From assembly GCA_023935145.1 (NCBI GenBank), contig CM043698.1, positions 68,251,501 to 68,315,500 of the forward strand: a DNA stretch of 64,000 nt, written 5' to 3'. The notes beneath the pieces are model-generated. The model had not been told where the DNA came from, ran no database searches, and saw only the letters and a list, made by a program, of their open reading frames with translations. Below, one piece after another: positions 7,605 through 44,128 of the stretch (position 1 is its first letter; each line of letters opens with the position of its first letter). The position numbers and the translations under genes were made by a program. This stretch comes from Bretschneidera sinensis (Eukaryota; Streptophyta; Magnoliopsida; Brassicales; Akaniaceae).

Positions 7605-7612
7605 TATATAAG
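7605..7612 (+). promoter_or_regulatory. TATA box of B3 gene copy 1
   Basis: TATATAAG lies 116 bp before the chosen ATG and is conserved in all three copies (29163-29170, 43994-44001). Just upstream a phrase 'tttcctaat..caaactgattt' is repeated twice. The long ORF runs open through this TATA box, so upstream ATG 7590 cannot be the start. Confidence 0.7.
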
Positions 7613-7727
7613 CCAATCTCACGCCTCTTTCATTACAATCTTCCTAAACCCTCAAAATTCCGTCTCATTCTCAAAACCCCCAAAAGCCCTAGAAAATTTT
7701 CTTTCGTTAATTTGCTCTGCTTCAACA

Positions 7728-11186: not shown

Positions 11187-12757
11187 ATGCTTGGTCGGAG
11201 ATCCTTGAACTTAGATTTGACACATTTAGATCCTGACTTAGAAAGAACTCTTAGGAGGCAGAAAAGAGCACTAGTTGAGAGAGAGACTGTTGAGATGGGA
11301 GAAAATTTTAATCATCCTGAACATGTAGAGCAACCTAGAGCTTGGAACGTGGACTCCACTACATCCCTTAGGGATTTGTTCGCACCCGTTGCGACTAACT
11401 CATCTTCCTGCATAGTGTTGCCACCAACCAATGCCACACACTTTGATTTGAAGCCACATGTTATCCAACTCCTACCCTCATTCCATGGCTTAGATCTTGA
11501 AAATCCTTATAGTCATGTGAAGAAGTTCAAAGACATTTGTGCTACATTCAAATTCCAGAACTTCTCTGAGGAGTCAGTCCATCTTCGACTCTTCCCTTTC
11601 TCCCTTCACGATAGAGCTAGGGCGTGGTTGGACTCCAACACGTCCGGGTCTATTACATCTTGGGAAAACCTGCTTAGCAAATTTTACCATAAGTTTTTCC
11701 CAATGTTTAGAGTGAATGAATGCCGAAAGGAGATTAGCTCTTTCACTCAGGACGAGGATGAGAAGTATTCTGAAAGCTGGGAGCGCTTTAAAGAGTTACT
11801 GATCAGATGCCCTCCACATGGATATGAGAAGTGGAGACTCGTTCAATTCTTCTACCAAGGGTTGACTCAACCCAACCGTAGCATGATAGAGTCTATGAAT
11901 GGGGGCCATTCTTGAGTCTGACAGGAGACGAAGCATATATGGGGTTGGACAAGTTGTCCGACAACTCACAACAGTGGGATTTTTCAAGCTGTCGAGATAA
12001 GTCCATTCGTGCTCCTAAGAGGGGAGGCATCTATGAGGTCAGGGAGGACGCTGATTTAAGGATAAAATTAGATGCCCTCACCAAGAAGATTGACGCTCTC
12101 ACTGTGAGCCAATCCATCAATGCTGCCAACACATTCAATGTTGAAAGCTGTTCCATCTGTGCTAGTCCCATGCATCTAGCACAGAATTGCCCATCAATGC
12201 CGGCTTGTGCCGAGTATCCTATGGAACAAGTAAATGCTTTCAATGACTTTCGAAGGCAGTCAAATGGATCGTACTCCGAGACGTACAATCCAGGGTGGCG
12301 GAACCACCCAAATTTTTCATGGAGGCAGAACCAACCAATGAATCAGGGAGGATCCTCTCATCATGCTCAAAATCAATATCCTCCCGGATTTGCCCCACAA
12401 ATTCCTAATCATGGTCTTTCTGCCCATCCAGCACCTTCACCTGCTTACCATGCACCCGCTCAAACACCAGCGCCAGTTTCACAGTCGCTAGAGGACACCC
12501 TTAAGGAATTCATGAAGGCGACTAGCCAAAATATGAGCGATGTGAGGAGTGCAACAATGGTAAACACCCAAGAAATTTCCAAGCTAGAGAGTCAAATAGG
12601 GCAAATTGCAAGTCACTTGGGTGAGAGAGAGAAAGGAAAGTTCCCCAGTCAGCCCGTGCAAAATCCAAAAGGACAATTTATGGTTGAGAGTTCATCAACT
12701 CCTACGCACGGGGAGGAACAAGTACAGTCGATTGTCACACTGAGGTCTGGGAGATAA
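11187..12757 (+). pseudogene. Gypsy A gag, frameshifted
   Basis: From ATG 11187 the frame encodes the matrix/capsid part with the retrotrans_gag domain (LFPFSLHDRARAWLD, FYHKFFPMF, FYQGLTQPNRSMIE). A net one-base deletion near 11900-11906 ends this frame at TGA 11913; the protein continues in another frame through GDEAYMGLDKL, a CCHC zinc knuckle CSICASPMHLAQNC (about 12150-12190), NPGWRNHPNFSW and TLRSGR, to TAA 12755. In relatives Gag and Pol form one ORF, so this TAA is a nonsense mutation rather than the natural Gag end. Confidence 0.85.
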
Positions 12758-15700
12758 GTGGACAATCGAGTGGAAGAGAGCCCTGCTATGCAGCAAGGGC
12801 AAGGGAGTGACAACACAGAGAAGAGAGATGCTGAGCCATCTGCAGCCACACCTACTGAGAAAGACCCTCCTAGGTCGTTTGTACCTAGAGCGCCCTACCC
12901 CGAGAGATTACAGGCACCCAAGAAAGGAGGGAAGTATGAAGAAATTCTGGAGGTATTCAAGCAAGTCCATATCAATATCCCATTTTTGGATGCCATCCAT
13001 CAAGTGCCATCATATGCCAAGTTTTTAAATGACTTGGTCACTATCAAGAGGAGGACGAATGTCCCAAAGAAGGCATTTTTGATCGAGCAGGTCAGTTCAA
13101 TCCTTCAGTGCAAGCTACCCATCAAGTATAAGGACCCGGGGTGTCCTACCATCTCTTGCACGATAGGAGTCAGCCACATTGAGAGGGCCCTTTTGGATCT
13201 AGGGGCGAGTGTGAATCTTCTACCCTACTCAGTCTATGTGCAGTTGGGGTTAGGAGAATTGAAGCCCACATCCACGACGCTTCAATTGGCTGACAGGTCA
13301 GTGAAAAGACCACGGGGGATAGTTGAGGACGTTTTGATAAAAGTGGATAAGTTCTATTTCCCCGTGGATTTTATTGTGCTTGACACAGAGCCGGTTCAGA
13401 ATGTAGGGATTCAAATACCGGTGATTCTAGGGCGACTATTCTTAGCCACGGCTAACGCCCTAATCAATTGTAGGACAAGGGTGATGAAGATCTCCTTCGA
13501 AAATATGACAGTGGAGTTGAACATTTTTGATATCACTAGGCAACCACTGGAATATGATGAAATGAGAGATGTATGCTTGATAGAGGAGATTCTTGAGGAT
13601 ACTGTGGATGAATCAAGCACTGAGGATCCCATGGAGGCATGCTTTGCTCACTTTGGAGAGGACTTAGGTTTAGATAGGTTACTCGAGGAAGTAAATGCCA
13701 TTTTGGAGTCTGATCCTCAAGAAAGCAAGGAGGAGGAGGAGAAGGTGTCACCAGAACCTCAAAAGAAGGAACTTAAGCCTTTACCGGATAATCTTAAGTA
13801 TAAGTTCCTGGGTCCAGCATACTGTTTGCCATTGATAATAGCTTCAGATTTAGGAGAGGCTCAAGAGGAGAAATTATTAGATGTTTTAAGAAAGCACAAG
13901 GAAGCTATCGGCTGGACCATTGAGGATATTAAGGGAATCAGCCCCTCGGTGGTGATGCATAGGATACACTTGGAGGAAGATGATAAGCCATCGAGGGAGC
14001 CGCAAAGAAGGCTCAACCCTGCTATGCAAGAGGTTGTGAGAGCAGAGGTTATTAAGCTGTTAGATGCAGGGATCATTTATCCCATCTCTGATAGCAAGTG
14101 GGTGAGCCCCATTCATGTCGTGCCCAAGCAAGCTGGATTAACGGTAGTAAAGAATAAGGACGACGAGTTGGTGCCAACTCGTGTGCAGTCTGGGTGGAGA
14201 GTGTGTATAGACTACCGTAAGCTGAACAATGCCACAAGGAAGGATCACTTTCCACTTCCATTTATTGATCAGATGGTGGAGCGTTTGGTTGGGCACGAGT
14301 ATTATTGCTTTTTGGATGGTTATTCTGGATATAACCAGGTCCCCGTGGACCCCGAAGATCAGGAGAAGACTACATTTACCTGTCCTTTTGGGACCTTTAC
14401 CTACCGTCGCATGCCCTTTGGGTTATGCAATGCACCCGCCACTTTTCAGCGGTGCATGGTCAGTATATTCTCTGACATGGTAGAGCGGTTCTTGGAGATT
14501 TTCATGGACGACTTCTCCATCTTCGGTTCAACATTTGAGGAGTGCCTGCACCGTCTCTCTTTGGTTTTGGTACGGTGCAAGGAGAAGAACCTGGTGCTTA
14601 ATTGGGAGAAGTGCCATTTTATGGTTAAGCAAGGAATTGTACTGGGGCATATCGTATCTCATCGAGGGATTGAGGTCGATAAAGCGAAGGTGGATTTGAT
14701 TTCCAGCCTTCCACCCCCACGTACGGTGAAAGAGGTTCGATCTTTTCTGGGCCATGCAGGTTTCTATAGGTGATTTATCCAGAATTTCAGCAAGATCGCC
14801 AGGCCCTTGTGCAAGTTGTTGCAAAAAGATGCCCCATTTCTATTTGATGAGGATTGTAAGAAAGCATTTGGGGATCTGAAGAAAATTCTGACGTCCACAC
14901 CCATTATTCAGCCACCTAACTGGGATGTGCCTTTTGAGATTATGTGTGACGCATCAGACTATGCTGTTGGAGCTGTTTTGGGGCAGCGTGTTGATAAACT
15001 TCCCCATGCTATCTATTATGCAAGTCGAACTCTAAACGACGCACAACTCAATTACTCTACCACTGAGAAGGAGTTGCTTGCAGTCGTTTTTGCATTAGAC
15101 AAGTTCAGATCCTACTTGTTAGGATCTAAAGTCATTATCTACTCAGACCATGCTGCATTGAAGTGTCTTTTCTCTAAAAAAAATGCTAAATCTCGTCTTA
15201 TCCGATGGATCTTGCTACTTCAAGAGTTCAACATTGAGATTCAGGATAAGAAAGGATCGAAAAATGTGGTGGCGGACCATTTGTCTAGATTGATTGTGGA
15301 ATTCAGTGAGGCTGCCACTCCCATTTCTGAGACCTTTCCTGATGAGCAATTGATGCACATTGCTCACAGTCCCGCACCATGGTTTGTTGACATAGTGAAC
15401 TATCTTGTCACCGGACACATGCCCTTGCATTGGGGCAGGCAAGATAAATCAAAATTCTTGGCCATGGTAAAACACTTTTTCTGGGACGATCCTTACCTGT
15501 TCAAGTATTGTCCTGATCAGATCATTAGACGGTGTATTCCTGAGCATAACCAATCTGATGTCATCGCCTTTTGTCATGATCATGCATGTGGAGGCCATTT
15601 TAGTGCTAAAAAGACCGCTGCAAAGATTTTGCAGTGTGGATTTTATTGGCCTACCCTGTTCCGGGACTCTCACACCTACTGTATATCTTGTGAGCGTTGC

Positions 15701-16672
15701 CAAAAGCTAGGGAGTCTTTCTAGGAGAAATATGATGCCCCTCAACCCTATTCTGATTGTTGAGATTTTTGATGTGTGGGACATTGATTTCATGGGACTAT
15801 TCCCAAACTCTTTTGGCTACCTATATATTCTAGTTGCTGTAGACTATCTGTCCAAGTGGGTGGAGGCAGTTGCGTGCAAGACCAATGACCACAGAGTTGT
15901 GGTCCAGTTCTTGAAAGACACTATTTTTGCTCGTTTTGGTACGCCTCGAGCAATCATAAGTGATGGAGGTAAGCACTTTTGCAACAAGATCTTTGAGCAG
16001 TTGATGAAGAAATATTGTATCACGCACAAAGTTGCCACCCCATATCACCCACAGACGAGTGGTCAAGTGGAAATTTCAAATCGCGAGATCAAACATATTT
16101 TGGAAAAGACTGTGAACCCTACTAGAAAGGATTGGTTTCTGCGATTGACGGATGCACTGTGGGCATATCGAACAGCCTTCAAGACGCCAATTGGCATGTC
16201 TCCCTATCGCATTGTATACGGAAAGGCATGTCACCTTCCGGTTGAATTAGAGCATCGTGCATATTGGGCTGTCAAGCAACTAAATTTTAATTTTTCCAAG
16301 GCTGGCTCACAACGGAAGCTCCAACTCAATGAATTGGAGGAGCTGCGGAATGATGCATATGAGTGTGCCCGATCATACAAAGCACAAATGAAGAAGACTC
16401 ATGACCAAAATATTTTGAGACGAGCTTTTGAGCCGGGTCAGAGAGTTCTTCTTTATAATTCGCGCCTGCATCTTTTTCCAGGCAAGCTCAAATCCCGATG
16501 GTCAGGCCCATTCATTATTCGATCGGTTTTTCCTCATGGGGCCATCGAGATTGAGGATCCTAAGAATGGTAATACTTTCAAGGTAAATGGACAGAGGCTA
16601 AAACCATTCTTAGAGTTGAGGAGTCCGGACATTGAGACGATACTGTTGGAGGATCCTAGTTACTCAGATTGA
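12758..16672 (+). pseudogene. Gypsy A pol: protease, RT, RNase H, integrase; one internal stop
   Basis: The same frame as the gag 3' half continues. In order: aspartic protease core LLDLGASVNLLP (about 13190-13230); reverse transcriptase with RVCIDYRKLN, FTCPFGTFTYRRMPFGL and the catalytic FMDD at 14501-14512; then TGA at 14771; RNase H with [25 protein letters not shown] and YSDHAAL; a zinc-binding HHCC region (HACGGH ... CISCERC near 15585-15705); an integrase core with DIDFMG, SDGGKHF and [11 protein letters not shown] supplying the D, D and E; and a C-terminal [16 protein letters not shown] stretch. It ends with TGA after SYSD. Apart from the nonsense codon it is well preserved, so inactivation is recent on an evolutionary scale. 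Confidence 0.9.
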
Positions 16673-16800: not shown

Positions 16801-17109
16801 TGTTGACCCTCACCCGTATTTTAATGATGGCAAAACACAACTGTTATTTAACTAACATGTTTAAACTAAGTTGTATTAAGGATCAAACACATTCAACCAA
16901 GGAACAAAATGCAAAAACTCGAACCAAATCAAGTATCAAGTGAAGACTGAAGATCTAGTATAGGTCTTAAGGTTTAGAACCAATGTAAGTCTCACTCATA
17001 CATTGTATTAGCTTGTTTAATGGCTCAAACACAAATGGTTTTTCTAAAACCATTAATTTTAAAATGTTTTTAAATGAAAAACAGAAGAAAAACTGGGTTG
17101 GAAGACAAC

Positions 17110-17373
17110 CCAGTCGACTGGGTACATATACCAGTCGACTGGTATATGGGTCAGAAGGTACCCAGTCGACTGGATGAATTAACCCAGTCGACTGGTACTT
17201 TGACCAGTAATTTCCCAGTCGACTGGATGAATCAACCCAGTCGACTGGCAAATGGACAGAAAGTCCCCAGTCGACTGGATGATATATACCAGTCGACTGG
17301 ATACCCAGAAGGTCTGAAATCGTATATTTTTCAAGTGAACCCAGTCGACTGGTATCTCGACCCAGTCGACTGG
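17110..17373 (+). repeat. Ten CCAGTCGACTGG palindromes in the 5' LTR
   Basis: Perfect copies start at 17110, 17131, 17162, 17184, 17215, 17237, 17267, 17289, 17341 and 17362. Spacing alternates around 21-22 and 30-31 bp, with one larger gap. The copy at 17131 sits in a 24-bp perfect palindrome (17125-17148). The array precedes the LTR TATA box by about 95 bp, the position of a U3 enhancer. Each site contains a SalI-type GTCGAC core and one CpG. Confidence 0.95.
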
Positions 17374-17468
17374 TAGTTCAAAAATATGACCGTTGGACTC
17401 CAAATCTGAACGTTTTAAAGTAAATCTTTTTCAAATTAAAGTCCAAAACGGCCATATTAATTGATTGC

Positions 17469-17476
17469 TATATAAA
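17469..17476 (+). promoter_or_regulatory. LTR TATA box of Sirevirus B
   Basis: TATATAAA, downstream of the palindrome array and the only good TATA box in the LTR at this position; it recurs at 26473-26480 in the 3' LTR. Likely origin of genomic RNA. Confidence 0.65.
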
Positions 17477-18052
17477 CCCACTCAGCAAAGCATTCAATAA
17501 CAAGCAGCACATATTCAAAAAGAGTTGATCTCATATAATCAAGTTTTTATACTCTTGAAACACAAAAAGCTTTGAAATAATCTTATTGAGCCATTTCTTC
17601 AAGCTTTACTTTGAAAGAGAGACATTTCTGTTGTAATAAGCTTTCATTTGTTGTCTCTCTACCTTTTACTTTACACCATCTTTGTAAAGGGATTACTTCC
17701 GAGAGGAAGGGGAAACTTCCGAAAGGAAGGGGATTTTTCGGTTTAAGCAATTCCTGTAAATTGCTTGTGTACGGTTTGTGCAACACCCGGCTAAGTTGTG
17801 CGACTAAGTTTTCTTAGTGGATTACTTCAAGGAGTTCCTTGAAGAGAGTGGACGTAGGGTCGGAACGAATCCGATATTGCCGAACCACTATAACTGTGTT
17901 TGCATCCTCTTTCCTTAAACTCTTTATTTACAGCTTTCTACTTGTATCAATTATTTGTTGCTTATCAGTTTTTATAAACTTGTATAAATTCCGCAAAAGT
18001 TTTTAAAAACCCAATTCACCCCCCCTCTTGGGTTGAAACCTCGAGCTACAAT

Positions 18053-18064
18053 TGGTATCAGAGC
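18053..18064 (+). other. Primer-binding site, initiator tRNA-Met (Sirevirus B)
   Basis: TGGTATCAGAGC begins two bases after the 5' LTR and matches the standard copia primer site. Confidence 0.95.
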
Positions 18065-18105
18065 CTAGTTCTCTTTATAAGGCTTAAATTCCTAGAGTTG
18101 ATCCA

Positions 18106-20154
18106 ATGGCAGCAAATAGCTACTCTGAGGGACACTCTTATACTAGACCTCCATTGTTCAATGGATCAAATTATAACTACTGGAAAAATAGAATGAAAAT
18201 CTTCGTCGAAGGACAAGATTACAATCTATGGAGAATTATAGAAGAGGGACCTAAAATTCCCTCAAAAGAAATAGTTATTGGAGAGACTCTTCATACAATG
18301 CCTAAACTCAAAACTGAGTTTACTGACGAGGATTGTAGAACAATGTCTCTCAATAGCAGAGCAACAAGCATGCTACATTGTGCTTTAGATATTTCTGAAT
18401 ATAACAAAATATCTGCATGCGTTTCTGCTAAAGAAATATGGGACAAATTGCAAGTCACATATGAAGGAACAAGTGAAGTAAAAAAGTCTAAAATTTACAT
18501 GCTAATTTCTGAATATGAATCTTTTAAGATGTCTCCTAATGAAACCATTTCTGAAATGCACTCACGATTTACTACTATTATAAATAGTTTAAAATTGCTT
18601 GGCAAGAATATTGAGGAAGTTGAACTAACCAGAAAAATCTTAAGATCTCTACCTCCAGAATGGAAACCAAAGAGGACAGCCATTCAAGAGGCCAAAAATC
18701 TTGACAAGCTTGATGTTGAGACGCTGCTTGGGTCATTATTGACATACGAGATGGAAGAAATGACTCCCATCGTCAATGATGATGAGAAGAAGAAGAAGCA
18801 AATTGCTCTCAAAGCTTCTACGAGCAACAAAGAAAAGGAATTAGAACAAGAAGCAGAGAGCAGTGAAGAGGATGGTGAAATGGCTTTAATCACTAGACGA
18901 TTCCATAGGTTCTTGAAGAAAAGCAAGAAACCTTACTCAAAGGATCCCACCTCAAAAAGGGAACCACTTATGTGCTATGGCTGCAAGAAGCCAGGACATA
19001 TAAAAGCTGACTGTCCAGTTTCAAGCAAACCATACAAGGGCTTCAAGAAGAAAGCTATGGTAGCAACTACCTGGAGCGATGACGAAGAAGATGAGTCATC
19101 AGACAAAGAAATTGGATACGAAGAGATTGCCAACCTCTGTTTAATGGCAATCGATGATGAAAGTGAGGTAACATCTTCTCCCTCTTCAAAAAATAATATT
19201 GTTACTAGTAGTGAAGAATTACTAGAAGTCATAAATGAAATGCATGAAGAATTAAAGAAATTTGATTCTAGAAATTCTGTTCTTAAGAAAGAAGTATCAT
19301 CTCTTTCTAAGGAAATGATAGTTCTTAGAGAAGAAAAAGAAAAATTATCATCTTTACTGTATAATTCGTCTCAAGATTTTCTTAAAGATGAAAATGAGAA
19401 TTTGAAAAATAAAATTTCTGAATTAAACAGCACTGTATCTAGACTTATGCTTGGTAAAGAAAAACTTGATGAAGTGCTTTCTTCCCAAAGATTAAGTGGA
19501 GGAAAATCTGGTGTAGGATATTCTCCATTGGGAAAACAAAAAACAAAAGAGAGCTTATTCATGAAAGCCTCTTGTGTAGATGGAGCTTCTACTTCGAAAG
19601 CTCCTAACCTTGTTAAAAGCACTCCCTTAATAAATCCGAGGAACTCTAGAAACTTAAATGATCATACTAAATTGAAGCATCCTAAAAATACTCATGCTTA
19701 TTTGTATGCTCATTCTAGAAATGCTCATACACATCCTAGAAATAATCATCATGCTCATTCTAGGAACAATGTGTATAATCAAAGAATGCATTCTGCTCAT
19801 CCTAGGAATCACCATCATGGCTATTCTAGAAATAACTTGCATACATATGCTAGCATGTATCCTAGAATGCATCATCGTTCATTTTCTGGAAATGACATGC
19901 ATTTTCATACCCCTTACCGTAGAATCATGTATCCTAGGAACTATCATCCTAAGGATTATAGGAATGCACATGTAAATTTCCTAGAAATTACTATGACTAT
20001 AATGCTAGGTATGTGCATCATCAACATGTTCATAGAGCACCATATATTGTTAAGAAAGTATGGGTCCCAAAAGGAACCGTATTTTCAAGAACTAACCCCA
20101 AAGGACCCAAGAAATTTTGGGTACCTAAAAATGCTATCGTATATCCTTGTGTGA
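18106..20154 (+). CDS. Sirevirus B Gag
   Basis: A 682-codon ORF starting at the first ATG after the primer site (MAANSYSEGHSY). Residues about 15-240 are the copia Gag (DUF4219/UBN2-type) domain with PPLFNGSNYNYWKNRM and LRSLPPEWKP. A CCHC zinc knuckle CYGCKKPGHIKADC lies at residues 290-303, for RNA binding in the particle. A long coiled coil follows at about 365-465. Residues about 510-625 form a histidine/asparagine/arginine-rich repeat region with recurring PRN, SRN and HH. Near 19976 the frame that encodes sensible protein moves by -1, so the last 58 residues of the ORF are out of frame with the pol-type sequence on the same DNA. Gag assembles the cytoplasmic particle. Confidence 0.9.
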   Translation: MAANSYSEGHSYTRPPLFNGSNYNYWKNRMKIFVEGQDYNLWRIIEEGPKIPSKEIVIGETLHTMPKLKTEFTDEDCRTMSLNSRATSMLHCALDISEYNKISACVSAKEIWDKLQVTYEGTSEVKKSKIYMLISEYESFKMSPNETISEMHSRFTTIINSLKLLGKNIEEVELTRKILRSLPPEWKPKRTAIQEAKNLDKLDVETLLGSLLTYEMEEMTPIVNDDEKKKKQIALKASTSNKEKELEQEAESSEEDGEMALITRRFHRFLKKSKKPYSKDPTSKREPLMCYGCKKPGHIKADCPVSSKPYKGFKKKAMVATTWSDDEEDESSDKEIGYEEIANLCLMAIDDESEVTSSPSSKNNIVTSSEELLEVINEMHEELKKFDSRNSVLKKEVSSLSKEMIVLREEKEKLSSLLYNSSQDFLKDENENLKNKISELNSTVSRLMLGKEKLDEVLSSQRLSGGKSGVGYSPLGKQKTKESLFMKASCVDGASTSKAPNLVKSTPLINPRNSRNLNDHTKLKHPKNTHAYLYAHSRNAHTHPRNNHHAHSRNNVYNQRMHSAHPRNHHHGYSRNNLHTYASMYPRMHHRSFSGNDMHFHTPYRRIMYPRNYHPKDYRNAHVNFLEITMTIMLGMCIINMFIEHHILLRKYGSQKEPYFQELTPKDPRNFGYLKMLSYILV

Positions 20155-20159
20155 TGTAG

Positions 20160-23100
20160 ATTTGCCTTCATACCAAGGAGAAAGGTAACTGTTGGTACCT
20201 TGATAGCGGTTGCTCGAAGCATATGACCGGTGATAAAAGCGTATTCAATGAGCTAACTCTAAGAGATGGTGGACTTGTGACCATTGGAGACAATACTAAA
20301 ATAAAGATCATCGGGCATGGAAAAGTCGGTAATGATTTCTCAACTTTAGATAATGTATTGCTAGTACAAGGCTTAAAGCCAAATTTACTTAGCATTAGTC
20401 AATTATGTGACAAAGGATATAAAGTCACATTTGAGACCTCTCATTGTCTAGTTATAGACATCAAGAGCAACAAGATCAAATTCATTGGCCATAGACATGA
20501 AAATGTCTATATAGTTGATTTGAAATCCTTACATTCCAATAATGAAAAATGTTTTCCTGCTTTTAGTGAAAATCAATGGCTATGGCATAGAAGGCTTGGT
20601 CATGTAAATATGAACTTGCTAAAAATTGTTTCAAGAAAAGATTTAGTTATTGGTCTTCCTAAAATCAATTTTGAGAAAAATAAAATTTGCAATGCTTGTC
20701 AAATGGGAAAACAATCAAGGATATCTTTCAAAGCAAAAAATGTTGTCTCAACTACTAGACCTTTGGAACTTTTGCATATGGACTTATTTGGTCCAATTAG
20801 TACCATTAGTCTAGGTGGCCATCAATATGCTCTTGTTATTGTTGATGACTATTCAAGATATACCTTTGTTATTTTTATTGCTTATAAGGATGAAGCTTTC
20901 AAAGGATTTGAAAAGTTTTGCAAAAAGGTACAAAATGAAAAAGGAATTTGTATTTCAAGCATAAGAAGTGATCATGGCAAAGAATTTGAAAATCAAAGCT
21001 TTTCAAAATTTTGTGATGAAAATGGAATTAATCACAACTTTTCAGCTCCTAGAACTCCTCAACAAAATGGAGTTGTTGAGAGGAAAAATAGAGTTCTAGA
21101 AGAATTTTCAAGAACAATGCTTTGTGAAAATAATTTACCAAAATATTTTTGGGCTGAAGCCGTGAATACTTCTTGCTATATTTTAAATAGAATTTTGATA
21201 AGGCCCCTGCTTGATAAAACTCCTTATGAACTATGGAAAGGGAGAAAGCCCAATATTTCCTATTTTCGTGCCTTTGGTAGTAAGTGCTTCATCTTAAATA
21301 ACAATAAAACTAACTTGGGTAAATTTGATTCCAAGACCGATGAAGGGATATTTTTAGGATATTCTACTACTAGTAAGGCTTATAGAGTTTTCAATAAGAG
21401 AACTCTAGTAGTAGAAGAATCTGTGCATGTAACTATTGATGAATCTAACCCAATGAGTAGTGGAGAAGTTTCCTTTAAAGATGATGCAGATTTTATTCCA
21501 AGAATGGAAACTTCTACTCCCATTGTTGACCCAAAAGTGAGTTCTTCTCAAACAAATGAAGGGATGGCAACTCCAAATTTGGACCAACCATCCTCAAGTC
21601 AACAAGAGGAAAATCTACCCAAGGATTGGAGGTATGTAAATCATCATCCAATTGATCAAGTAATTGGTGATCCTTCACAAGGGGTAAGAACTCGTTCTTC
21701 CATTAGAAATATTTGCAATTTTGTAGCTTATTTGTCTCAAGTAGAACCTAAGACATTTATAGAAGCTGAAAAAGATAATGATTGGATAATTGCAATGCAG
21801 GAAGAGATAAATCAATTTGAGAGAAACAATGTTTGGGAACTAGTTCCAAGACCTAAAGATCATTCAATTATTGGAACTAAATGGGTATATAGAAATAAAA
21901 TGGATGAAAATGGTATAGTAACTAGAAATAAGGCTAGGCTAGTTGCTAAGGGATATAATCAAGAGGAAGGAATAGATTTTGATGAAACCTATGCTCCCGT
22001 AGCTAGATTAGAAGCTATTCGAATGTTATTAGCCTTTGCATGCTTTAATAAATTCAAGCTATTTCAAATGGATGTGAAAAGTGCCTTTTTAAATGGCTTT
22101 ATAGAAGAAGAGGTTTATGTTGAACAACCTCTTGGTTTTGAAAATCCTAGTCTTCCAAATCATGTCTACAAGCTTTCTAAGGCTTTATATGGGCTGAAGC
22201 AAGCTCCAAGGGCATGGTACGAAAGACTAAGCAAATTTTTGATTGATAATGATTTTGTAAGAGGAAAAATAGATACAACTCTCTTCACAAAAACTCACAA
22301 AAATGACACTTTGATAGTTCAAATATATGTTGATGATATTATATTTGGTGCTACTAATGAATCTATGTGTCAAGAGTTTGCAAAGTGCATGCAAGGTGAA
22401 TTTGAAATGAGCATGATGGGAGAACTTACCTACTTCCTTGGACTGCAAATCAAGCAACTAAAAGGAGGTATCTTCATCAATCAACAAAAGTACATCAAAG
22501 ATCTACTAAAGAGGTTCGGGATGGAAAGCTCAAAGCCAATTGGAACGCCTATGAGCACAACCACCAAACTTGATCTTGATGAAGGAGGTAAAACTGTAGA
22601 TTCTAAATATTATAGAAGCATGATAGGTGCTTTACTGTACTTGACTGCAAGTAGACCTGATATAATGTTCAGTGTATGCATGTGCGCTAGATTTCAATCT
22701 AATCCTAAGGAATCACATGTAGTTGCAGTAAAAAGAATCCTTAGATATCTACAAGGGACCCAGACCATAGGATTATGGTATTCTAGAGAATCATCTTTTG
22801 AGCTAGTAGGATATTCGGATGCTGATTTTGCTGGATGTAGGTTAGATAGAAAAAGCACAAGTGGAACATGCCAATTCTTAGGTGCTATGTTAACTTCTTG
22901 GTTCTCCAAGAAACAGAATTCAGTTGCACTATCAACCGCTGAGGCGGAATATGTAGCAGCTGGCAGTTGTTGTGCCCAAGTATTATGGATGAAACAACAA
23001 CTAGAAGACTATGGCATGAGTCTCAAAAATATTCCTATATTTTGTGATAATACTAGTGCCATCAACCTAACCAAAAATCCTATTCAGCACTCTAGAACCA

Positions 23101-23282
23101 AGCATATAGAGATTAGACATCATTTCTTAAGAGACCATGCTCAAAAAGGTGATATAAGATTAGAATTTATACCTTCAGAAGATCAAATAGCTGATATTCT
23201 TACAAAACCCTTAAGTGAAGCTAGTTTTTGCAAAATAAGAAAGTTGATGGGATTGCTTGATTTTGATAAATTGAATGTTTGA
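20160..23282 (+). CDS. Sirevirus B Pol: protease, integrase, RT, RNase H
   Basis: The first ATG is at 20223, but the protease active site [12 protein letters not shown] begins before it (about 20190), so the natural protein enters from gag; a TAG at 20157 stands just upstream. Domains in order: aspartic protease; gag-pre-integrase zinc region (WHRRLGHVN ... CNACQMGK); integrase core with [14 protein letters not shown] and GVVERKNR (D, D, E); copia reverse transcriptase with YVDD at 22326-22337 and [14 protein letters not shown]; RNase H with [15 protein letters not shown] and CDNTSAI. From 20160 to the stop the frame is fully open (over 1000 codons). All catalytic residues are present, so the enzymes look functional if translation can reach this frame. 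Confidence 0.9.
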
Positions 23283-23422
23283 TTGCATCTCATTTCATCA
23301 TTTGCAAGTTTGACATTGAGTGATAGAGTATTAATCCATGTTTAATTATTCCCTTCACTCAAAAATGTCATAGATAAACAAAATCGTGCTAAAAATTCAG
23401 GACTGGAAATTTTACTCAGGAT

Positions 23423-23761
23423 CCAGTCGACTGGTAAATGTTCTCCAGTCGACTGGTAAGTCTCTGCCTGTTTTTCCAGTCGACTGGTAATTTTGACCCA
23501 GTCGACTGGTAACTCTCTGCCAAAAACTCCAGACGACTGGTAAGTCTTCTCCAGTCGTCTATAAAATCAAATCATGCTTGGAGCCAAATTTTTTTCATTT
23601 TTTTTGAACCCCCAGTCGACTGGTAACGATAGCCCAGTAGACTGGTATCTCACTGTCAGTTGATCCAGTCGACTGGTACGTTTACCCAGTCGACTGGTAA
23701 GAGAAACTGTTCATCTTTACAAAAGGGCCCAGTCGACTGGTAAGTTTACCCAGTCGACTGG
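23423..23761 (+). repeat. Second CCAGTCGACTGG array, before the env-like ORF
   Basis: Perfect copies start at 23423, 23445, 23476, 23498, 23612, 23665, 23686, 23729 and 23750. One-base variants are CCAGACGACTGG at 23529 and CCAGTAGACTGG at 23634; a more diverged one starts at 23551. Most copies are followed by TAA or TA, and many are paired about 21-22 bp apart, as in the LTR. The flanking DNA differs from the LTR, so this is not a stray LTR piece. Confidence 0.93.
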
Positions 23762-23772
23762 TATCGCGATTC

Positions 23773-23780
23773 TATAAAAG
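23773..23780 (+). promoter_or_regulatory. Putative internal TATA box for the env-like ORF
   Basis: TATAAAAG lies 12 bp after the last palindrome and 211 bp before ATG 23991. Array, TATA box, CT-rich leader and ORF are in the order expected for a promoter. No experimental support is visible here. Confidence 0.45.
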
Positions 23781-23990
23781 GGACTGTTCATTTTCGCCCT
23801 CTTTACGCCATTTTCAAAGAGCCCAAGCTTTCTCTCTCTAGAAAAATTCATCTTTTTGATCTAAAAATCATCCAAATCCCTTCTAAACACACCGATCTAC
23901 TCATTCCTAAAGAGATTTTTAACTTTCTACGGTTACAATCTCTCATTTTTACCAAATTTCCTTTTTCCAAAAACTTCAAATTTCTCGAAA

Positions 23991-25247
23991 ATGAGTGACA
24001 AAATCCGTATAAAACTCACAACAAGTGGACCTAATGCGCCCAAAAAGCCTAGGTCTTCAAAACCTTCGGCTTCGGAATCAAAAGGGAAGGGAGTAGCAGG
24101 GTCATCCAGCAAGGAGTCCAGAACAGAGTTGGAGCAGGCTCTGTTTTTCAGCCCAGCTGCTCATAAGAGGTATAACTCTATAATCCGTCACAAGAAAATC
24201 ATGACGGGTAGAGTCGTTGATTTCGACTCCATTCGTCATGGTAATTTCGATATTCTACCAGCCTTTGAGGCAATAAATCTGACCCCACTGGTCAGTATTC
24301 ATGAAAAATATTACCCGCGACTGATTCACCAGTTCTATGCGAACTTGGTGAAACCCAGTCCTCTGGCTCTGAGATTCAGAACCAGAGTTAGCGGTGTGGA
24401 GTTTGAGGTCAACACTGACCTCTTGATGAGCATTCTGAGAATCCCTATAAGGGGGGTTCAATGGAGTCTGGATGGATGGCCAGACAACTTTGAAGTTGAG
24501 GAGGCCTGTCGGATAGTCAGGGGCGACCCTAACTATGTGTACAGACCCACTACATTTCACACATGTAGTGACTTACCCCTCGACTCAAAAATGTTTCAAT
24601 TGATTGTCAGTTGGACCATCCACCCGAGACTCGGGAGTCGAGGGTATCTATCTAAAATAGATACGGTATTGATTTGGTGCCTAAAATCTGGGCACCACTT
24701 CAATATATATCCTCTGCTGCTCGCCAACATGATAAACGGTGAAGCAAACGACTCCGGGTGTCTTCCTTATGGGATGCTCATTACACTCATCCTCCAGCAC
24801 TTCCGGGTACCTTTGCCTGCCTCCGAGGCTCAGGATATCGGATTGACGGATATCATCAACATCTCATCTCTAAAGAAGATGGGATGTACTGTTCGTGAAG
24901 GGTTTCTCTATCCTAAGGCTGGAAAGCGCCTAAGGATTCGAGAGGATGCGAGTGACAGTGGTGAGGATGCTGATACGGCTGCTGAGATGGAGACAGATAC
25001 CCGAGCACCTCCCATTGGTGACTCGAGTACTGGTCAGACTGGATATGGTGACATCCTACGAGCTATCGCGAGTCTTCAGATGACGATGGAGTCTGGTTTT
25101 CAGTCCATGCAGTCCGATTATCAGAGGCTGAGCTCCTCCATAGACCACCTACGGGATGACTTCGAGTTACATCGAGAGCACACCGAGGGTTCCCTAGCTG
25201 AGATTAGGGAACTTCTTCGTGACAGCTCGGACTCTCCCGCACCATGA
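23991..25247 (+). CDS. Sirevirus B extra ORF (env-like position, putative plant transposon protein)
   Basis: An intact 418-codon ORF in the position of the env-like gene of Sireviruses. The N-terminus is basic and Ser/Lys-rich (MSDKIRIKLTTSGPNAPKKP). Residues about 70-310 form one globular region with SIHEKYYPRLIHQFYANL, FRTRVSGVEF and LLMSILRIP, which I recognise as the 'putative plant transposon protein' domain common in plant repeats. Residues about 350-415 look like an amphipathic coiled coil (heptad-like Leu/Ile, DHLRDDFELHREH). I see no signal peptide and no convincing membrane segment, so a classical envelope role is not supported. No stop or frameshift occurs, which suggests selection or a very recent origin. 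The function is unknown. Confidence 0.85.
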   Translation: MSDKIRIKLTTSGPNAPKKPRSSKPSASESKGKGVAGSSSKESRTELEQALFFSPAAHKRYNSIIRHKKIMTGRVVDFDSIRHGNFDILPAFEAINLTPLVSIHEKYYPRLIHQFYANLVKPSPLALRFRTRVSGVEFEVNTDLLMSILRIPIRGVQWSLDGWPDNFEVEEACRIVRGDPNYVYRPTTFHTCSDLPLDSKMFQLIVSWTIHPRLGSRGYLSKIDTVLIWCLKSGHHFNIYPLLLANMINGEANDSGCLPYGMLITLILQHFRVPLPASEAQDIGLTDIINISSLKKMGCTVREGFLYPKAGKRLRIREDASDSGEDADTAAEMETDTRAPPIGDSSTGQTGYGDILRAIASLQMTMESGFQSMQSDYQRLSSSIDHLRDDFELHREHTEGSLAEIRELLRDSSDSPAP

Positions 25248-25804
25248 GTCTCATTCATTTAATCAGTTCTTAGCACTTTTCCAGTATTTGTCACTTAGCA
25301 CGGACATCTCATGTTTGTTTTTCTTAGTTATGGCTCTATAAGACTCTACTTGTATTGACTTTTTCTATGATGATGTAATACTATAAGCCATATTTCTTGC
25401 ATTTATTTAAGCTATTTGTGATATGTTAGAACTGTTTTTAAATATCTGTTTGTCTCATAGCTTATTTGTTAATTGTTCTGCCCCCTTTGGTTGCTGTTGT
25501 CAAAACGGGGGAGAAAAATGAGAAAAACGAGAAAATCTAAGTAACGAGAAAATCTAAGTAAAAACGCAACCAATGCATAGATTTAGGGGGAGCATTGCTC
25601 CATATCTATGTAAAAATGTTTATTGATTGGTTGAGTTTAATTCTGGATTGGTTGAAAGAAATATAAACTGTGTTTGCTTGTTTACAGGGTGGTTTTTCTC
25701 GAAAAACAGAGGAGACTCTGTCCAAATTTTTGTAAAATCTTAACACTTAGTTTTTAAAACTGTTTTTACATTATTAGTTTTGTCATCATCAAAAAGGGGG
25801 AGAT
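25248..25804 (+). other. Sirevirus 3' untranslated region with three polypurine tracts
   Basis: GGGGGAG occurs at 25507-25513, 25586-25592 and 25796-25802; the last sits two bases before the 3' LTR and is the working plus-strand primer. A 17-bp near-exact tandem, 'gagaaaatctaagtaac', lies near 25530-25560. Multiple polypurine tracts are a known Sirevirus trait. Confidence 0.85.
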
Positions 25805-27054
25805 TGTTGACCCTCACCCGTATTTTAATGATGGCAAAACACAACTGTTATTTAACTAACATGTTTAAACTAAGTTGTATTAAGGATCAAACACATTCAA
25901 CCAAGGAACAAAATGCAAAAACTCGAACCAAATCAAGTATCAAGTGAAGACTGAAGATCTAGTATAGGTCTTAAGGTTTAGAACCAATGTAAGTCTCACT
26001 CATACATTGTATTAGCTTGTTTAATGGCTCAAACACAAATGGTTTTTCTAAAACCATTAATTTTAAAATGTTTTTAAATGAAAAACAGAAGAAAAACTGG
26101 GTTGGAAGACAACCCAGTCGACTGGGTACATATACCAGTCGACTGGTATATGGGTCAGAAGGTACCCAGTCGACTGGATGAATTAACCCAGTCGACTGGT
26201 ACTTTGACCAGTAATTTCCCAGTCGACTGGATGAATCAACCCAGTCGACTGGCAAATGGACAGAAAGTCCCCAGTCGACTGGATGATATATACCAGTCGA
26301 CTGGATACCCAGAAGGTCTGAAATCGTATATTTTTCAAGTGAACCCAGTCGACTGGTATCTCGACCCAGTCGACTGGTAGTTCAAAAATATGACCGTTGG
26401 ACTCCAAATCTGAACGTTTTAAAGTAAATCTTTTTCAAATTAAAGTCCAAAACGGCCATATTAATTGATTGCTATATAAACCCACTCAGCAAAGCATTCA
26501 ATAACAAGCAGCACATATTCAAAAAGAGTTGATCTCATATAATCAAGTTTTTATACTCTTGAAACACAAAAAGCTTTGAAATAATCTTATTGAGCCATTT
26601 CTTCAAGCTTTACTTTGAAAGAGAGACATTTCTGTTGTAATAAGCTTTCATTTGTTGTCTCTCTACCTTTTACTTTACACCATCTTTGTAAAGGGATTAC
26701 TTCCGAGAGGAAGGGGAAACTTCCGAAAGGAAGGGGATTTTTCGGTTTAAGCAATTCCTGTAAATTGCTTGTGTACGGTTTGTGCAACACCCGGCTAAGT
26801 TGTGCGACTAAGTTTTCTTAGTGGATTACTTCAAGGAGTTCCTTGAAGAGAGTGGACGTAGGGTCGGAACGAATCCGATATTGCCGAACCACTATAACTG
26901 TGTTTGCATCCTCTTTCCTTAAACTCTTTATTTACAGCTTTCTACTTGTATCAATTATTTGTTGCTTATCAGTTTTTATAAACTTGTATAAATTCCGCAA
27001 AAGTTTTTAAAAACCCAATTCACCCCCCCTCTTGGGTTGAAACCTCGAGCTACA
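25805..27054 (+). mobile_element. 3' LTR of Sirevirus B
   Basis: 1250 bp, offset by exactly 9004 bp from the 5' LTR along its whole length, with the palindrome array at 26114-26377 and the TATA box at 26473-26480. I found no mismatch or indel on reading. Confidence 0.95.
26114..26377 (+). repeat. Ten CCAGTCGACTGG palindromes in the 3' LTR
   Basis: The same ten copies as in the 5' LTR, shifted by 9004 bp. Here the array could act on downstream DNA, that is on gypsy A and B3 copy 2. Confidence 0.95.
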
Positions 27055-27297: not shown

Positions 27298-29162
27298 TCA
27301 GTAAGCACTTTTTGTTAATGTTAATTAAGGAACAAAATCTTGGATTATTCTTGTTAATGTTAAACATCGAACCTCCATTCTTACCAAACTTTTCATTTCG
27401 CTCATTGTTTCCACATAAAATAACTTCTAAACAATTTTTTTTAACTTTTCTATACACTTAACAAAAATATGTAATCCAAAAAAAGGAGTTTCTGTTTAGA
27501 AGATTTATTTTTTTCATGTTTGCGCAAATAGAGTCATTTTGCATGGGGACCATTTGATAGATGGAGAAGATGGGGTGAGCTCCATACTCCCATTTCATAC
27601 TTACAAAAGGGGAAGAGAGAGAGCTCGCGAGCTAAGATCAGCCTAAGAGAGAAGCTAGGTGCATAGAGGGAAAAGATAGAAGAGAAATGAGAGAGTGAAT
27701 GGAAAAAGAAACAGAAAGGAAGAGTAGGGAGTGGGATCATAATCATATTGCACGAGCCTAGGCTTAGATGAAATTTGGATAATGAAATATTTTTGGATGA
27801 TAGATGGCAATTGGACCTAAGCCCAATTGGACTTAAAAATACATTTAGGTGGCAAAAAAAGCCTAAGCCTGATTAATTTTTAAAATGAGCTTGGTAAAAA
27901 AAAAGGTTAACTATATGTATTGGTAATAAATCATGACTTTATGTTCAAGGATTGTAATCATCTCCATTTAAATGACTTTATATTCAAGTCATTTAAAAAT
28001 TAAATAAAGACTTGGATTGAAACACAATTTTTTAGGACCAAAACGCTCCTCTGTCATGTCAACAAAGTGAGAGTATTTTTAGAAAATCATTTTTTTCAAA
28101 AAATTCAAATGCTACCATTCATGAAGGCGCCTCCCATGCATGAACCATCGACTTGCGCATAGGGGCACTTGTGATGATGGAAACAGGGATTAGTTGGAGG
28201 CCATGCTTGAACAATCAGCTTTCTCCCCTAATTCTGCCTCGGTTGTATGATTGGTTCCTGGTAATAGTCATCGAAAATTAAAAGAGCATACCTAAAAAAT
28301 GGTCCCCTTCAATTTGCGGTGAGACAATTGGCGGTGTGGCAGAGGGCAATACTTCAGGGTTCAATTCTGTAAATCTCGTCAAGCTCTTTTCAATGATACC
28401 AAAATTGTATTTTCCCGAAAATTGGTTAGCCTATATCGTCAAAAGTCTCGGGGGTTAACAAAATTAAATCAATGACATTATTAATTTGTTTATATATATT
28501 CTTATGTTTATTTAAGACAAATTTGAATTACTATGGTTATTTCAATTATTTCACCTTCAACTGGATCAAATGGAGAGAAGTCCCAATTAAAAAGTATCAT
28601 GTTCTTATGTTTAGGGATCAAGCTTCTAGTTTATCTTTCTGACACTTCGATTGGTCATCGGGGTGATCAAAATCATATTAGAGTACTTCTTTTGTCATCA
28701 TAAGGTTTTCATAAATACCAATCTTACAAAAATATGTTTAAAAGATTAAAATTATTATTTTTTGAATTTTTAGTTCCCATTTAATTTAAAGGACACTGTT
28801 TTAAGAACCTAAAGAAATAATAATGGAGACATACATCAGAATCAAGAAAAACATAAAACCTATAAAACACAAGAAAAAAAATAAAATGTAACTAAAATAT
28901 GGTAAAAAAGAAGAGGAAAACGAAAAAAAAAAAAAAAAAGAAGAAGATTAAGAAAAGTAGCTTGCTAGGTACAAGCTTATTAAGCGTATGATATCAAAGA
29001 AACAACGCAAAGCTGCATTAAGAGAATTTTAAGCTTATATGATAGAACGCACTATTTTCTTCTTACAATTTATAGGCAATAAAGTTTGTTATTTCGTTTT
29101 ACTTTCCTAATTCCAAACTGATTTACTTTTCCTAATCTCAAACTAATTTGCTCTCGCTTGTC

Positions 29163-29170
29163 TATATAAG
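29163..29170 (+). promoter_or_regulatory. TATA box of B3 gene copy 2
   Basis: TATATAAG, 116 bp before ATG 29286, at the position seen in copies 1 and 3. Confidence 0.7.
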
Positions 29171-29285
29171 CCAATCTCACGCCTCTTTCATTACAATCTT
29201 CCTAAACCCTCAAAATTCCGTCTCATTCTCAAAACCCCCAAAAGTCCTAGAAAATTTTCTTTCGTTAATTTGCTCTGCTTCAACA

Positions 29286-29972
29286 ATGCAGATACTGCAA
29301 CAACCTATATGTCCAAACAAAGCTAATTCTCAAACCATGAAGAGAAAACATCACTTCTATGTTTTAAAACAAGAAACTGAACGCCAAGAAGTCTCCACTG
29401 CAATGACAATTTCTTGTGAGTTTCATGGCAAAACAAAGAAACCCAGAACAACTCATCAAACCCAGATTTCATTCAATAATCATCATGCTATTGTTGTTTC
29501 ACAAATACAACAGAAGATTTCAGCGATGAAATATTACACCAAGAAAGAGGAGCAAGAAGAGAAAGAAAAGGGTGTTTCCACTAAACTGAAGCTTTACATT
29601 GATCCATGGAAGATCAAGAAGAAGCTGACGATTAGTGATCTTGGGAAACTGAGTAGGCTACTTGTGAAGACAGAATTGATCAAGAACCATGTTTTGCCAT
29701 TCTTGAGCACTAATTGCATCAATCAGATTGAGAGTAAGAATGGAAAAGTCATGGTGGTCTGGGATCAAGACACAATGTCTGAACATCAATTAATTCTCAA
29801 GCTATGGCATACTTCAAAGAGCTATGTTTTGATTGGCAATTGGAACCAAGAGTTTGTGAAAAGAAGGGAGTTGAAGGAAGGAGATGAGATTGGACTTTAC
29901 TGGGATCCATATAGCTCAAGATTCAATTTTACCCTTTTTCTACGGACTCCAGTTTCCAATCAAGTTAATTAA
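29286..29972 (+). CDS. B3 domain-containing protein, copy 2
   Basis: An intact 228-residue ORF; the product differs from copy 1 by a single residue (Asn instead of Asp at 143, inside the B3 domain). Promoter and downstream DNA are also nearly identical, so both copies should respond alike unless the Sirevirus 3' LTR (2.2 kb upstream, same orientation) or other flanking elements alter copy 2. The start was chosen as for copy 1. Confidence 0.85.
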   Translation: MQILQQPICPNKANSQTMKRKHHFYVLKQETERQEVSTAMTISCEFHGKTKKPRTTHQTQISFNNHHAIVVSQIQQKISAMKYYTKKEEQEEKEKGVSTKLKLYIDPWKIKKKLTISDLGKLSRLLVKTELIKNHVLPFLSTNCINQIESKNGKVMVVWDQDTMSEHQLILKLWHTSKSYVLIGNWNQEFVKRRELKEGDEIGLYWDPYSSRFNFTLFLRTPVSNQVN

Positions 29973-33539: not shown

Positions 33540-36175
33540 TTATGTGAAACCTATGTCTTCTCTTCTTGTGAAACCATTCATCACCAGCCTAGCCATATTC
33601 CGAACTTCATCTCTTGGAGGGCACCCTTCTTTGATCTTGTAAGTGCACTTACATTCCACAACTTTCTGATTTCCTAGAATTTTCACCAATTCCCAGAAGT
33701 TGTTCTTCCTCAAAGAATCCATTTCTTCCTCCATAGCTAGCTGCCACTTTGACGAATCCTTACACTCCATAGCCACTGTGTAAGTTTCTTGTTCACTCAT
33801 ATCTCCTTCTGTCCAAGGAGCTGCTACATCCGCAGCATCCGTAAACCCACATCTTGAAGGTAGTCCGACCAGCCTTCTTTCCCGGTCTCTTATGAGCTGA
33901 AAGTCCTTCTGACTTGCTGCAGCATCCTCTTCTTGTTCAGCCTCTTCTTGAGTTTCTTGAGCTTGGCAATCATCCAAGGGCTCTACGTGGTCCGAACCCT
34001 CTTGGCTCCTTTGCTCTACTTGAACAGAATCTCCCTTGATGCCATGCTCAACAATTTCTAAATTGGTTTGCTCACTAGCCCCTGCAGGGTTAGTTTTCTC
34101 CAAGTAGGGAAATAATAATTCATTAAAGACAACATCCCTACTTTTTATGAGTTTAAATCCTTCTTTTTCTAAGAACCATAACCTGTACCCCTTAGCCCCT
34201 TCCCCATATCCTAGAAACACATATTTTCTAGATCCTGGGCTAAGCTTATCCTCCTTTTGGAGTGCATACGCAGCACATCCAAAAATCCTAAGATTGTCCA
34301 ACTCAGGGGGTTTTCCACTCCATATCTCCATGGAAGTCTTGAGCTCTATTGCTCTAGAGGGTGATCTATTCACCAAGTATGCAGCTGTAGCTACAGCTTC
34401 TCCCTAAAAATATTTTGGTAACCCGGATCCATCTAACATGCACCTAACCTTTTCCATAAGGGTCTTATTCATCAACTCAGCAACTCCATTTTGCTGAGGA
34501 GTTTCCACAACCGTCCTATGTCTTAGAATGCCATTTAACCTACAGAATTGATCAAGTTCTTGGTTAAAAATTTTCAAGCCATTATCGGTTTTTATCCCCT
34601 TAACTACTCTACCCATTTGAGTCTCAACCAGCCCTTTCCACACTACTAATTTATTCAAGGCATCTAATTTATTCTTAACCAAATAAACCCATACTTTTCT
34701 TGAATAATCATCAATTAAAGACAGAAAGTAAATGTTACCTCCCTGTGTTGGTGTCCTTGCTGGTCCCCAAAGGTCCGCATGAATGTAGTCAAGAATGCCC
34801 TTAGACTTGTGCACTCCGGTGTTGAAGCTGACCCAATGTTGTTGCCCAAAAACGCAGCTCTTACAGAAATCCAGTTCTTCTACTTTGTCACAACCAAGTA
34901 GACCTTCCTTGCTAAGCACTTGCAGGCCCTTTTCGCTCATGTGTCCCAAGCGAGTGTGCCAAAGGGCTGCCTTGTCCAGCTCAGCCATCAAGCTTGCTGC
35001 TTGATCATTGGTTTCTGTTTCTCCGATCATCTCATAGAGTCCATCGTTTCTTGCTGCCTTGATCACTACCAAAGATCCCTTGGCCACCTTGATCTTTCCT
35101 CCCTCTATCTTGCATGTATAGCCCATGGAATCCAGCTACCCCAATGAGATCAAGTTCCTCTTCAAATCTGGAACATACCTCACATTTTCCAGCAGCCTTG
35201 TGACTCCATCAAACATCCTCAATTGGATGTCTCCAATCCCTCTCACTTGGCAAGAATTATCATTCCCCAAGAAGACCCTTCCATCATTGATCTTCTTGAA
35301 ATTCTTGAACCATTCTTTGTGAGGGCTCATATGATGAGTGCACCCGGTATCCAAGATCCATTTCCCGCTGCCTTCTTGCCCCTTGCTCACACTTAAGCAC
35401 ACAACAAGAACATCATCATCTTGCTGTTTTGTTTTGGCAACCGAAGCCTCTCCATTCTTGGTATGGCTTCCTCCTCTATCCCTTGTCATCTTCTTGCAAT
35501 ATTTCTTGACATGACCCTCCTTATGGCAGTAGTAGCAGCTCTTCCCTCCAAATCTCAGTTTGGAATGCATTCTCCCATGGCTTTCTCCTCTACCTCTATC
35601 ATGGTAGTAGCCATGCATGCTGTTGTGCACTCTCCTATGGCTCTCTCCTCTACCTCTGTCCCGGTAGTAGCCATACATGCTGTTGTGCACTCTCCCATGG
35701 CTCTCTCCTCTACCTCTGTCCCGGTAGTAGCCATGGTTGCTGCCATACCAAGTTGCTGGCCTTCTTTTAAAGAACAACCCTTTACCACTTGATGCACTCC
35801 TTATCTTGGCATCAAGATCATCTTGCAACTCTTTCTTAGGATCAAATTTAAAAGCAAAGATTCGTTTCCGAAGATACCTCTTATGTGGGAGAGTCTTGGC
35901 AAGAAACAATTCATCTAGTTTCTTCCATAATGCAGCTGGATCTTCCGAGTCTCCGCACTCCCTTGTGACATTGTCCGACATGTCCAAGAAAATGGTGCTG
36001 TAAGCCATCTTCTTCATCTCGGTCCGCTAGTCCTCCATGACATTTGCTGAAAAGCATCATCTTCTCCAATAGTCAAGTCCACTTTCTGCTGCATGAGAAC
36101 CGCCTTGATCTTCCGCTTCCATAGGGTAAAGTCCCCCTTTCCATCAAACTTCTCCACACAGAAATTTGAAGCCAT
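33540..36175 (-). pseudogene. Copia C gag-protease-integrase, broken
   Basis: Gag starts at ATG 36175 (MASNFCVEKFDGKG) and shifts frame near 36020-36030. It continues through three tandem 20-residue repeats built on GYYRDRGRGESHGRVHNSM (about 35566-35745), a zinc knuckle CYYCHKEGHVKKYC, protease WILDTGCTHHMS, a stop at 35136, the pre-integrase region (WHTRLGHM ... CKSCVFG), and an integrase core with HADLWGP, KTDNGL and GVAELMNKTL. A further stop is at 34404. The frame ends near 33540 at the very start of reverse transcriptase (ARLVMNGFTRRED). Related to Tnt1-like copia elements. Non-functional. Confidence 0.85.
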
Positions 36176-44001: not shown

Positions 44002-44128
44002 CCACTCTCACACATCTCTTTCATTACAATCTTCCAAAACCCTCAAAATTATGTCTCATTCTCAAAACCCTCAAAAGCCCTAGAAAATTTTCTTTCGTTA
44101 ATTTTCTATGTTTTCCCCCGTTTCAACA

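Follow-up and report, generated by a model that had tools for sequence, protein, structure and literature searches.

Shared palindrome arrays in the LTRs and before the third gene of a Bretschneidera sinensis Sirevirus, with helical spacing that hints at a common protein for the main promoter and a likely second one

Organization of the locus

The window, i.e., the whole stretch of 64,000 nucleotides that was analysed, contains a Copia-type element at 16801-27054 that is a recent Sirevirus insertion (Table 1). The two LTRs of this element, each 1250 bp in length, were identical base for base, and the target duplication was CCAGT. The pol ORF, which lay in a different frame from gag in this copy, encoded integrase (rve, residues 178-279) followed by reverse transcriptase (RVT_2, residues 535-778), i.e., in the order found in Copia elements. 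Several features of Sireviruses were also present, including two copies of the polypurine tract AGGGGGAG in the linker (the published Sirevirus mean being 4 copies per element; PMC2829016), an inverted repeat flanking the terminal copy and its junction with the 3' LTR (25778-25793 and 25824-25839, 14 of 16 positions paired) and the polyC-rich signal CACCCCCC near the 3' end of each LTR (at 18017 and 27021). The 629 bp from the LTR TATA box to the gag ATG (18106) contained no ATG, and the probability of this by comparison with shuffled sequences was low (P 0.002). No relatives of the element were found in collections other than plant ones, namely among viral contigs (pattern scan; ORF3 and RT-piece searches), genome contigs (RT piece) and phages (array), and a sequence search of the PDB gave just two weak matches (E 0.22 and 0.3).

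The gag and pol ORFs of a Gypsy element, located within 11187-16672 (ORF 11912-12757 being outside the domain scan), immediately precede the Sirevirus, which seems to be nested in this element. Three minus-strand ORFs at 33540-36017 read, by their translations, like remains of another Copia element. Three related ORFs at 7590-8414, 29148-29972 and 44108-44812 made up a local gene family, with two members nearly identical and the third closely similar, as judged from their translations; two of these ORFs matched the B3 DNA-binding domain weakly, under the Pfam cut-off, and the third gave no match at E 0.001.

Table 1. Positions of the principal features of the Sirevirus within the window.
Feature	Position	Strand	Remarks
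5' LTR	16801..18050	+	1250 bp; identical to 3' LTR
LTR array, 10 perfect CCAGTCGACTGG	17110..17373	+	steps 21,31,22,31,22,30,22,52,21
LTR TATA box TATATAAA, mid-LTR	17469..17476	+	downstream of LTR array
Primer binding site TATCAGAGC	18056..18064	+	adjoining 5' LTR; of the Sirevirus type
gag ORF	18106..20154	+	Retrotran_gag_2; zinc-knuckle match under Pfam cut-off
pol ORF	20223..23282	+	integrase before reverse transcriptase, as in Copia
Spacer array, 12 sites (9 without mismatch, 2 with a single one, 1 with three)	23423..23761	+	steps 22,31,22,31,22,61,22,31,21,43,21
Extra TATA-like TATAAA	23560..23565	+	overlaps degenerate sixth spacer site
Candidate internal TATA box TATAAAAG	23773..23780	+	11 bases past spacer array
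Strong candidate 3' splice site GCTTTCTCTCTCTAG	23840..23841	+	AG at 23840-23841; long pyrimidine tract
ORF3, 418 aa	23991..25247	+	Transposase_32 (PF20167)
Additional polypurine tract AGGGGGAG	25585..25592	+	
Terminal polypurine tract AGGGGGAG	25795..25802	+	at 3' LTR
3' LTR	25805..27054	+	1250 bp
3' LTR array, 10 perfect sites	26114..26377	+	309 bp past LTR start

Copies and spacing of the palindrome

The 12-bp palindrome CCAGTCGACTGG occurred in 29 perfect copies in the window, namely 10 in each LTR, upstream of the TATA box as stated in the original prediction, and 9 in the spacer between pol and ORF3; no perfect copy was found within the window outside 16801-27054. With up to one mismatch allowed, 31 matches were obtained, all within the element, as compared with a mean of 0.02 and a largest count of 1 in 100 shuffles, and no other 12-bp palindrome exceeded three occurrences. 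The predicted total of twelve spacer sites was likewise recovered. It includes two copies with one mismatch and, at 23551, CCAGTCGTCTAT, which has three mismatches and was counted as a site only because it lies at the expected 22-bp step. The array also stood just ahead of a TATA-like sequence, as had been proposed, with 11 bases between the end of the last site (23761) and the start of TATAAAAG (23773), and the third gene was intact, its reading frame being open over 418 codons (23991-25247).

Two minor features of the arrays were noted. Thus, ORFs of 100 aa with NPVDW repeats ran across the LTR arrays (17074-17376 and 26078-26380) and were taken as a by-product of the repeats, and the spacer sites at 23456, 23540 and 23740 extended into CTGGTAAGT, which has the strict form of a splice donor. 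The latter sequences may arise from the TA found after most spacer sites.

Sites in both arrays appeared to be spaced by whole turns of the DNA helix. When periods between 6 and 60 bp were scanned, each array separately gave its peak at 10.5 bp, with R values of 0.966 for the LTR array and 0.936 for the spacer array, the latter being 0.95 when the degenerate site was omitted and 0.94 for the nine perfect sites alone. At 10.5 bp per turn, none of the 22 dyads lay more than 1.1 bp from the average face of the array to which it belongs; the worst fit was that of the 61-bp step, which is 2 bp off whole turns. The observed phasing was not reached by any of 20000 independent random-gap simulations in either array. 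Since the units in each array were tandem-duplicated, the steps are not independent, and P values were 0.0002 (LTR) and 0.002 (spacer) against a tandem-dimer null in which the repeated two-site unit was kept. Under the strictest null, in which the five distinct step classes were drawn randomly from 18-65 and, by the analyst's choice, steps of 21 were pooled with those of 22 and steps of 30 with those of 31, P was 0.026 for the largest deviation and 0.009 for the summed deviation. Whole-turn phasing of the sites is likely on these statistics, which come from one element.

Linkers between the sites were compared in two size classes, with the 43-, 52- and 61-bp steps left out. Identity between arrays was 0.339 for short linkers (5 by 6), as compared with 0.338 for shuffled ones (P 0.49), and 0.285 for long linkers (3 by 3), as compared with 0.274 (P 0.37); inside each array, linker identity was 0.49-0.61. 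In a second test, which also took in the 13 bases preceding each site pair (30 comparisons), the overall mean was 0.311 as opposed to 0.283, with both mean and maximum weakly above shuffles (P 0.043 and 0.044), and values for the last LTR unit (17341/17362) against the six spacer units were 0.45-0.59. Two spacer units aligned with this unit over 48 nt, half of them (24 nt) being site sequence, at identities of 75% and 81%. Thus, the proposal that the sequences flanking the sites are unrelated in the two arrays held on average, the linkers being no more alike than shuffled ones, but held less well for the last LTR unit, which weakly resembles the spacer units. These findings indicate that the arrays have the site and the order of steps in common but little of their linkers. 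There was no support for the spacer array being a recent copy, made as one block, of the entire LTR array, since between-array linkers were on average as shuffled.

Tandem growth did occur inside the arrays, as in-register units of an array were 78-85% alike over 47-74 nt, and each array may have grown as a unit of roughly 53 bp with two sites was duplicated in tandem. Given the resemblance of the last LTR unit to spacer units, descent from an ancestral unit, rather than separate selection, may partly account for the site and its steps, and one old unit of this kind perhaps lies behind both arrays. The site counts and the phasing are independent of the result on linker similarity.

Comparison with published Sirevirus motif clusters

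The original prediction had placed a second array before the third gene outside the accepted model of Sireviruses, which proved to be wrong. Repeated motifs (RM) were described by Bousios et al. 2010 (PMC2829016) in 13 Sireviruses, with LTR copies always present, and Table 3 of that paper lists palindrome copies before ENV in nine elements. According to this source, all ENV-bearing elements with the motif (9/9) have linker copies too, 77 of the 79 copies being upstream of ENV, and none of the ENV-less elements (0/4) has them. The same table largely answers the question, raised by the original prediction, of whether the motif covaries between LTR and spacer, as the motif varies by element with one consensus for the LTR and pre-ENV copies of each; most elements differ in consensus, OPIE-2 and PREM-2 having one in common. 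The RM clusters were cited in PMC2829016 in favour of the hypothesis of an internal promoter (Peterson-Burch and Voytas 2002), a promoter that was, as stated in PMC2829016, not conclusively identified, and an internal promoter is among the expression mechanisms listed in the MASiVEdb paper of 2012 (PMC3414828). With pre-ENV clusters described in PMC2829016, the idea of an internal promoter marked by a palindrome array is thus already in print.

The arrays of the present element resembled RM clusters in being formed by a symmetric high-copy motif (no fewer than 8 copies, all told, per published element; PMC2829016) that lies in the upstream portion of the LTR, ahead of a TATA box in mid-LTR, and in having extra copies before a third gene, which is here a Transposase_32 ORF. 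The LTR array began 309 bp past the PPT junction, as compared with 200-400 for RM clusters (PMC2829016), and both arrays were CpG-enriched (observed/expected 0.81 and 0.83 as opposed to 0.46 for the window; G+C 0.44), as are RM clusters. Unlike 12 of the 13 published RMs, the motif was without a CGG-CCG core and had CAG-CTG instead, Tnd-1 being the published exception (PMC2829016). The nearest published RM was that of Vitis, CGGTCGACCG, from which the motif differs by two symmetric transitions with loss of the two outer CpGs, a loss that may reflect decay through methylation.

In contrast with the elements as described in PMC2829016, a TATA box directly followed the array before ORF3. This TATA box, the coreless motif, the divergence of the linkers and the phasing are new relative to that paper as far as its sections and Table 3 go, and no mention of whole-turn phasing was found in those sections or by a term search of its text. 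Nor did the matches listed by a literature search, which took in few subscription papers, include a report of helical phasing in Sireviruses. A text search of the literature with two 11-mers inside the motif gave, among the matches listed, no title on retrotransposons.

Interpretation of the arrays and expression of ORF3

The favoured interpretation, held with moderate confidence, is that one factor would bind one face of the DNA at both promoters and drive both the LTR RNA and a separate ORF3 mRNA. The 12-bp palindrome would be the site for a dimeric, sequence-specific DNA-binding protein, and both arrays would be enhancer-like clusters in which the sites of each array face one side of the helix; the steps, which at 10.5 bp per turn come to 2, 3, 4, 5 and approximately 6 turns, would suit cooperative binding on one face. 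The LTR array would act on the LTR TATA box to give genomic RNA and the spacer array on the internal TATA box at 23773 to give a separate mRNA for ORF3. As the usual distance from TATA box to start is about 32 bp, the internal start would be expected near 23805. A single factor, whether of the host or encoded by the element, would couple the two transcripts in this way.

Several observations argue for one factor, namely the excess of sites (31 as opposed to 0.02 expected), their phasing, the order of array, TATA box and ORF3, and the fact that the site and the pattern of 21/22-31 steps are common to both arrays while linkers are on average as shuffled. The published finding that the pre-ENV motif occurs only in ENV-bearing elements, with one consensus per element (PMC2829016), points in the same direction. 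From this anatomy we infer protein binding, internal initiation and coupling of the transcripts, and the regular position of the sites round the helix is a new hint that both promoters may answer to the same protein. The earlier proposal of a shared factor and an internal promoter thus stands as the best reading of the anatomy, with its protein-binding part strengthened by the phasing, but a strong acceptor at 23840 keeps splicing in contention.

Expression of ORF3 from a spliced, LTR-initiated RNA through this acceptor, with the spacer array acting as an enhancer of the LTR or having no role in ORF3 initiation, is possible, if rather doubtful. The acceptor ranked 11 among the 725 YAG sites of the window by pyrimidine tract, in a ranking from which tracts with AG inside 12 nt were dropped and from which a 15-nt filter removes 23840 itself, and splicing has been reported for env-like elements, e.g., barley Bagy2 (PMC7264820). 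However, the six strict GTRAGT donors in 16801-25300 comprised one in the LTR (upstream of the TATA box), two in pol and three in the spacer array, and none was present in the LTR leader or gag when the strict form alone was scored. Splicing also leaves unexplained why pre-ENV arrays occur only where ENV exists. The 210 bp between the spacer TATA box and the ORF3 ATG were free of ATG. In contrast with the LTR leader (P 0.002), this was not significant for the composition of the sequence (P 0.65 for 23781-23990 and 0.09 for 23577-23990), and the observation was dropped as evidence of internal initiation.

Residues 96-274 of the ORF3 protein matched Pfam Transposase_32 (PF20167) with E 3.6e-15. 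The first 50 residues were basic (pI 10.2) and the C-terminal region acidic, and, as regards a possible coiled coil, one long helix was predicted at 349-413; this helix includes the sole confident stretch (block pLDDT values of 66-88 over 371-410) in a single-sequence model that was poor overall (mean pLDDT 38.7). By the usual Kyte-Doolittle threshold of 1.6, no transmembrane segment was found, the best 19-residue mean being 1.19. The extra ORF at the 3' end of a sunflower Athila element is reported to have a Transposase_32 domain too, together with a predicted nuclear localisation signal (PMC11728184). These features of the protein, with the same domain known from the Athila ORF, make the label env-like doubtful for ORF3.

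A more specific version of the one-factor interpretation, which must be considered unlikely, is that ORF3 itself would be a nuclear regulator and not an envelope protein, binding the palindromes of its own internal promoter first and those of the LTR afterwards, and so acting within a Copia element either as a feedback switch, like Tas, or as an anti-silencer, like VANC. The Transposase_32 domain, the basic N-terminal tail and the long C-terminal helix, which could dimerise, would suit such a role, and co-evolution of protein and site would account for the difference in motif between Sireviruses. By analogy, an element-encoded reader of the arrays is conceivable, while a factor from the host is at least as likely.

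A comparable system is that of foamy viruses, in which an internal promoter exists in addition to that of the LTR, the internal promoter drives a 3' gene and one factor, Tas, acts at both, reading the internal promoter first (PMC7390438). Foamy viruses belong to another virus family and Tas binds DNA, whereas binding by ORF3 is only putative; in addition, the two foamy virus promoters are little related in sequence (PMC7390438) as opposed to the one exact palindrome that is common to both here. In VANDAL transposons, as in the present element, a short motif forms dense arrays, born of tandem repeats, in non-coding DNA of the element, where it is read by the anti-silencing VANC proteins that VANDALs encode (PMC5735166). 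VANDALs, however, are DNA transposons with a non-palindromic motif, YAGTATTAY, in one orientation, and binding of VANC21 was demonstrated by experiment (PMC5735166). Grande, a Gypsy element of maize, carries an accessory gene, gene23, that has a promoter to itself and encodes a nuclear protein (PMC7264820). Unlike ORF3, gene23 is antisense to gag-pol, and no palindrome array is mentioned for it in the passages of that source on the gene.

Action of the arrays as RNA or silencing structures, i.e., as hairpins in read-through RNA, small-RNA hot spots or sites of genomic-RNA dimerisation, is decidedly unlikely. Both arrays folded as RNA far more strongly than shuffled sequences (z -12.2 and -15.0), and LTR palindromes of maize Sireviruses are reported as hot spots of small-RNA mapping (PMC5311732). 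However, when the sites were kept and the linkers shuffled, the real sequence was equalled or bettered in folding by all 60 shuffles for the spacer array and by 6 of 60 for the LTR array (z -1.0), so that the palindromes alone explain the stability of the folds. Tuning of the linkers for RNA pairing showed no sign in the spacer and an at most weak one in the LTR. This control weakened the case for selection on RNA structure and, together with the phasing, favours a protein on DNA; helical phasing would be meaningless for RNA hairpins, and transcription from the LTR is expected to start downstream of the 5' LTR array.

It is very unlikely that the arrays are neutral tandem repeats, i.e., two functionless minisatellites grown by slippage, perhaps from one ancestral unit. 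The tandem growth described above and the weak likeness of the last LTR unit to spacer units (P 0.04) are as expected of such repeats, but the sites are near identical although linkers diverged, the same site and steps are found at two places, each ahead of a TATA box, and the pattern recurs with different motifs in nine elements (PMC2829016). Finally, production of ORF3 by read-through of the pol stop codon, a mechanism reported for SIRE1 (PMC2829016), is hardly credible since, although ORF3 shares its frame with pol, the pol stop at 23280 is followed by seven more in-frame stops before the ORF3 ATG, as opposed to the single stop codon that separates pol and ENV in SIRE1 (PMC2829016).

The means by which the third gene of Sireviruses is expressed, and its role, have been in question since at least 2002 according to PMC2829016, in which no common factor for the palindromes could be named. 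For the interpretation favoured here, with one factor at both promoters, the whole-turn phasing makes a descriptive motif into a testable grammar of binding sites, and the TATA box adjoining the array marks where the start site should be found. If a single element-encoded protein reads both arrays, this would explain both the change of motif between elements and its sameness within one. ORF3 also differed from the other genes of the element in composition, with G+C of 0.48 and a CpG observed/expected ratio of 0.66 as compared with 0.34-0.35 and 0.20-0.33 for pol and gag, as if it were of other origin or less methylated.
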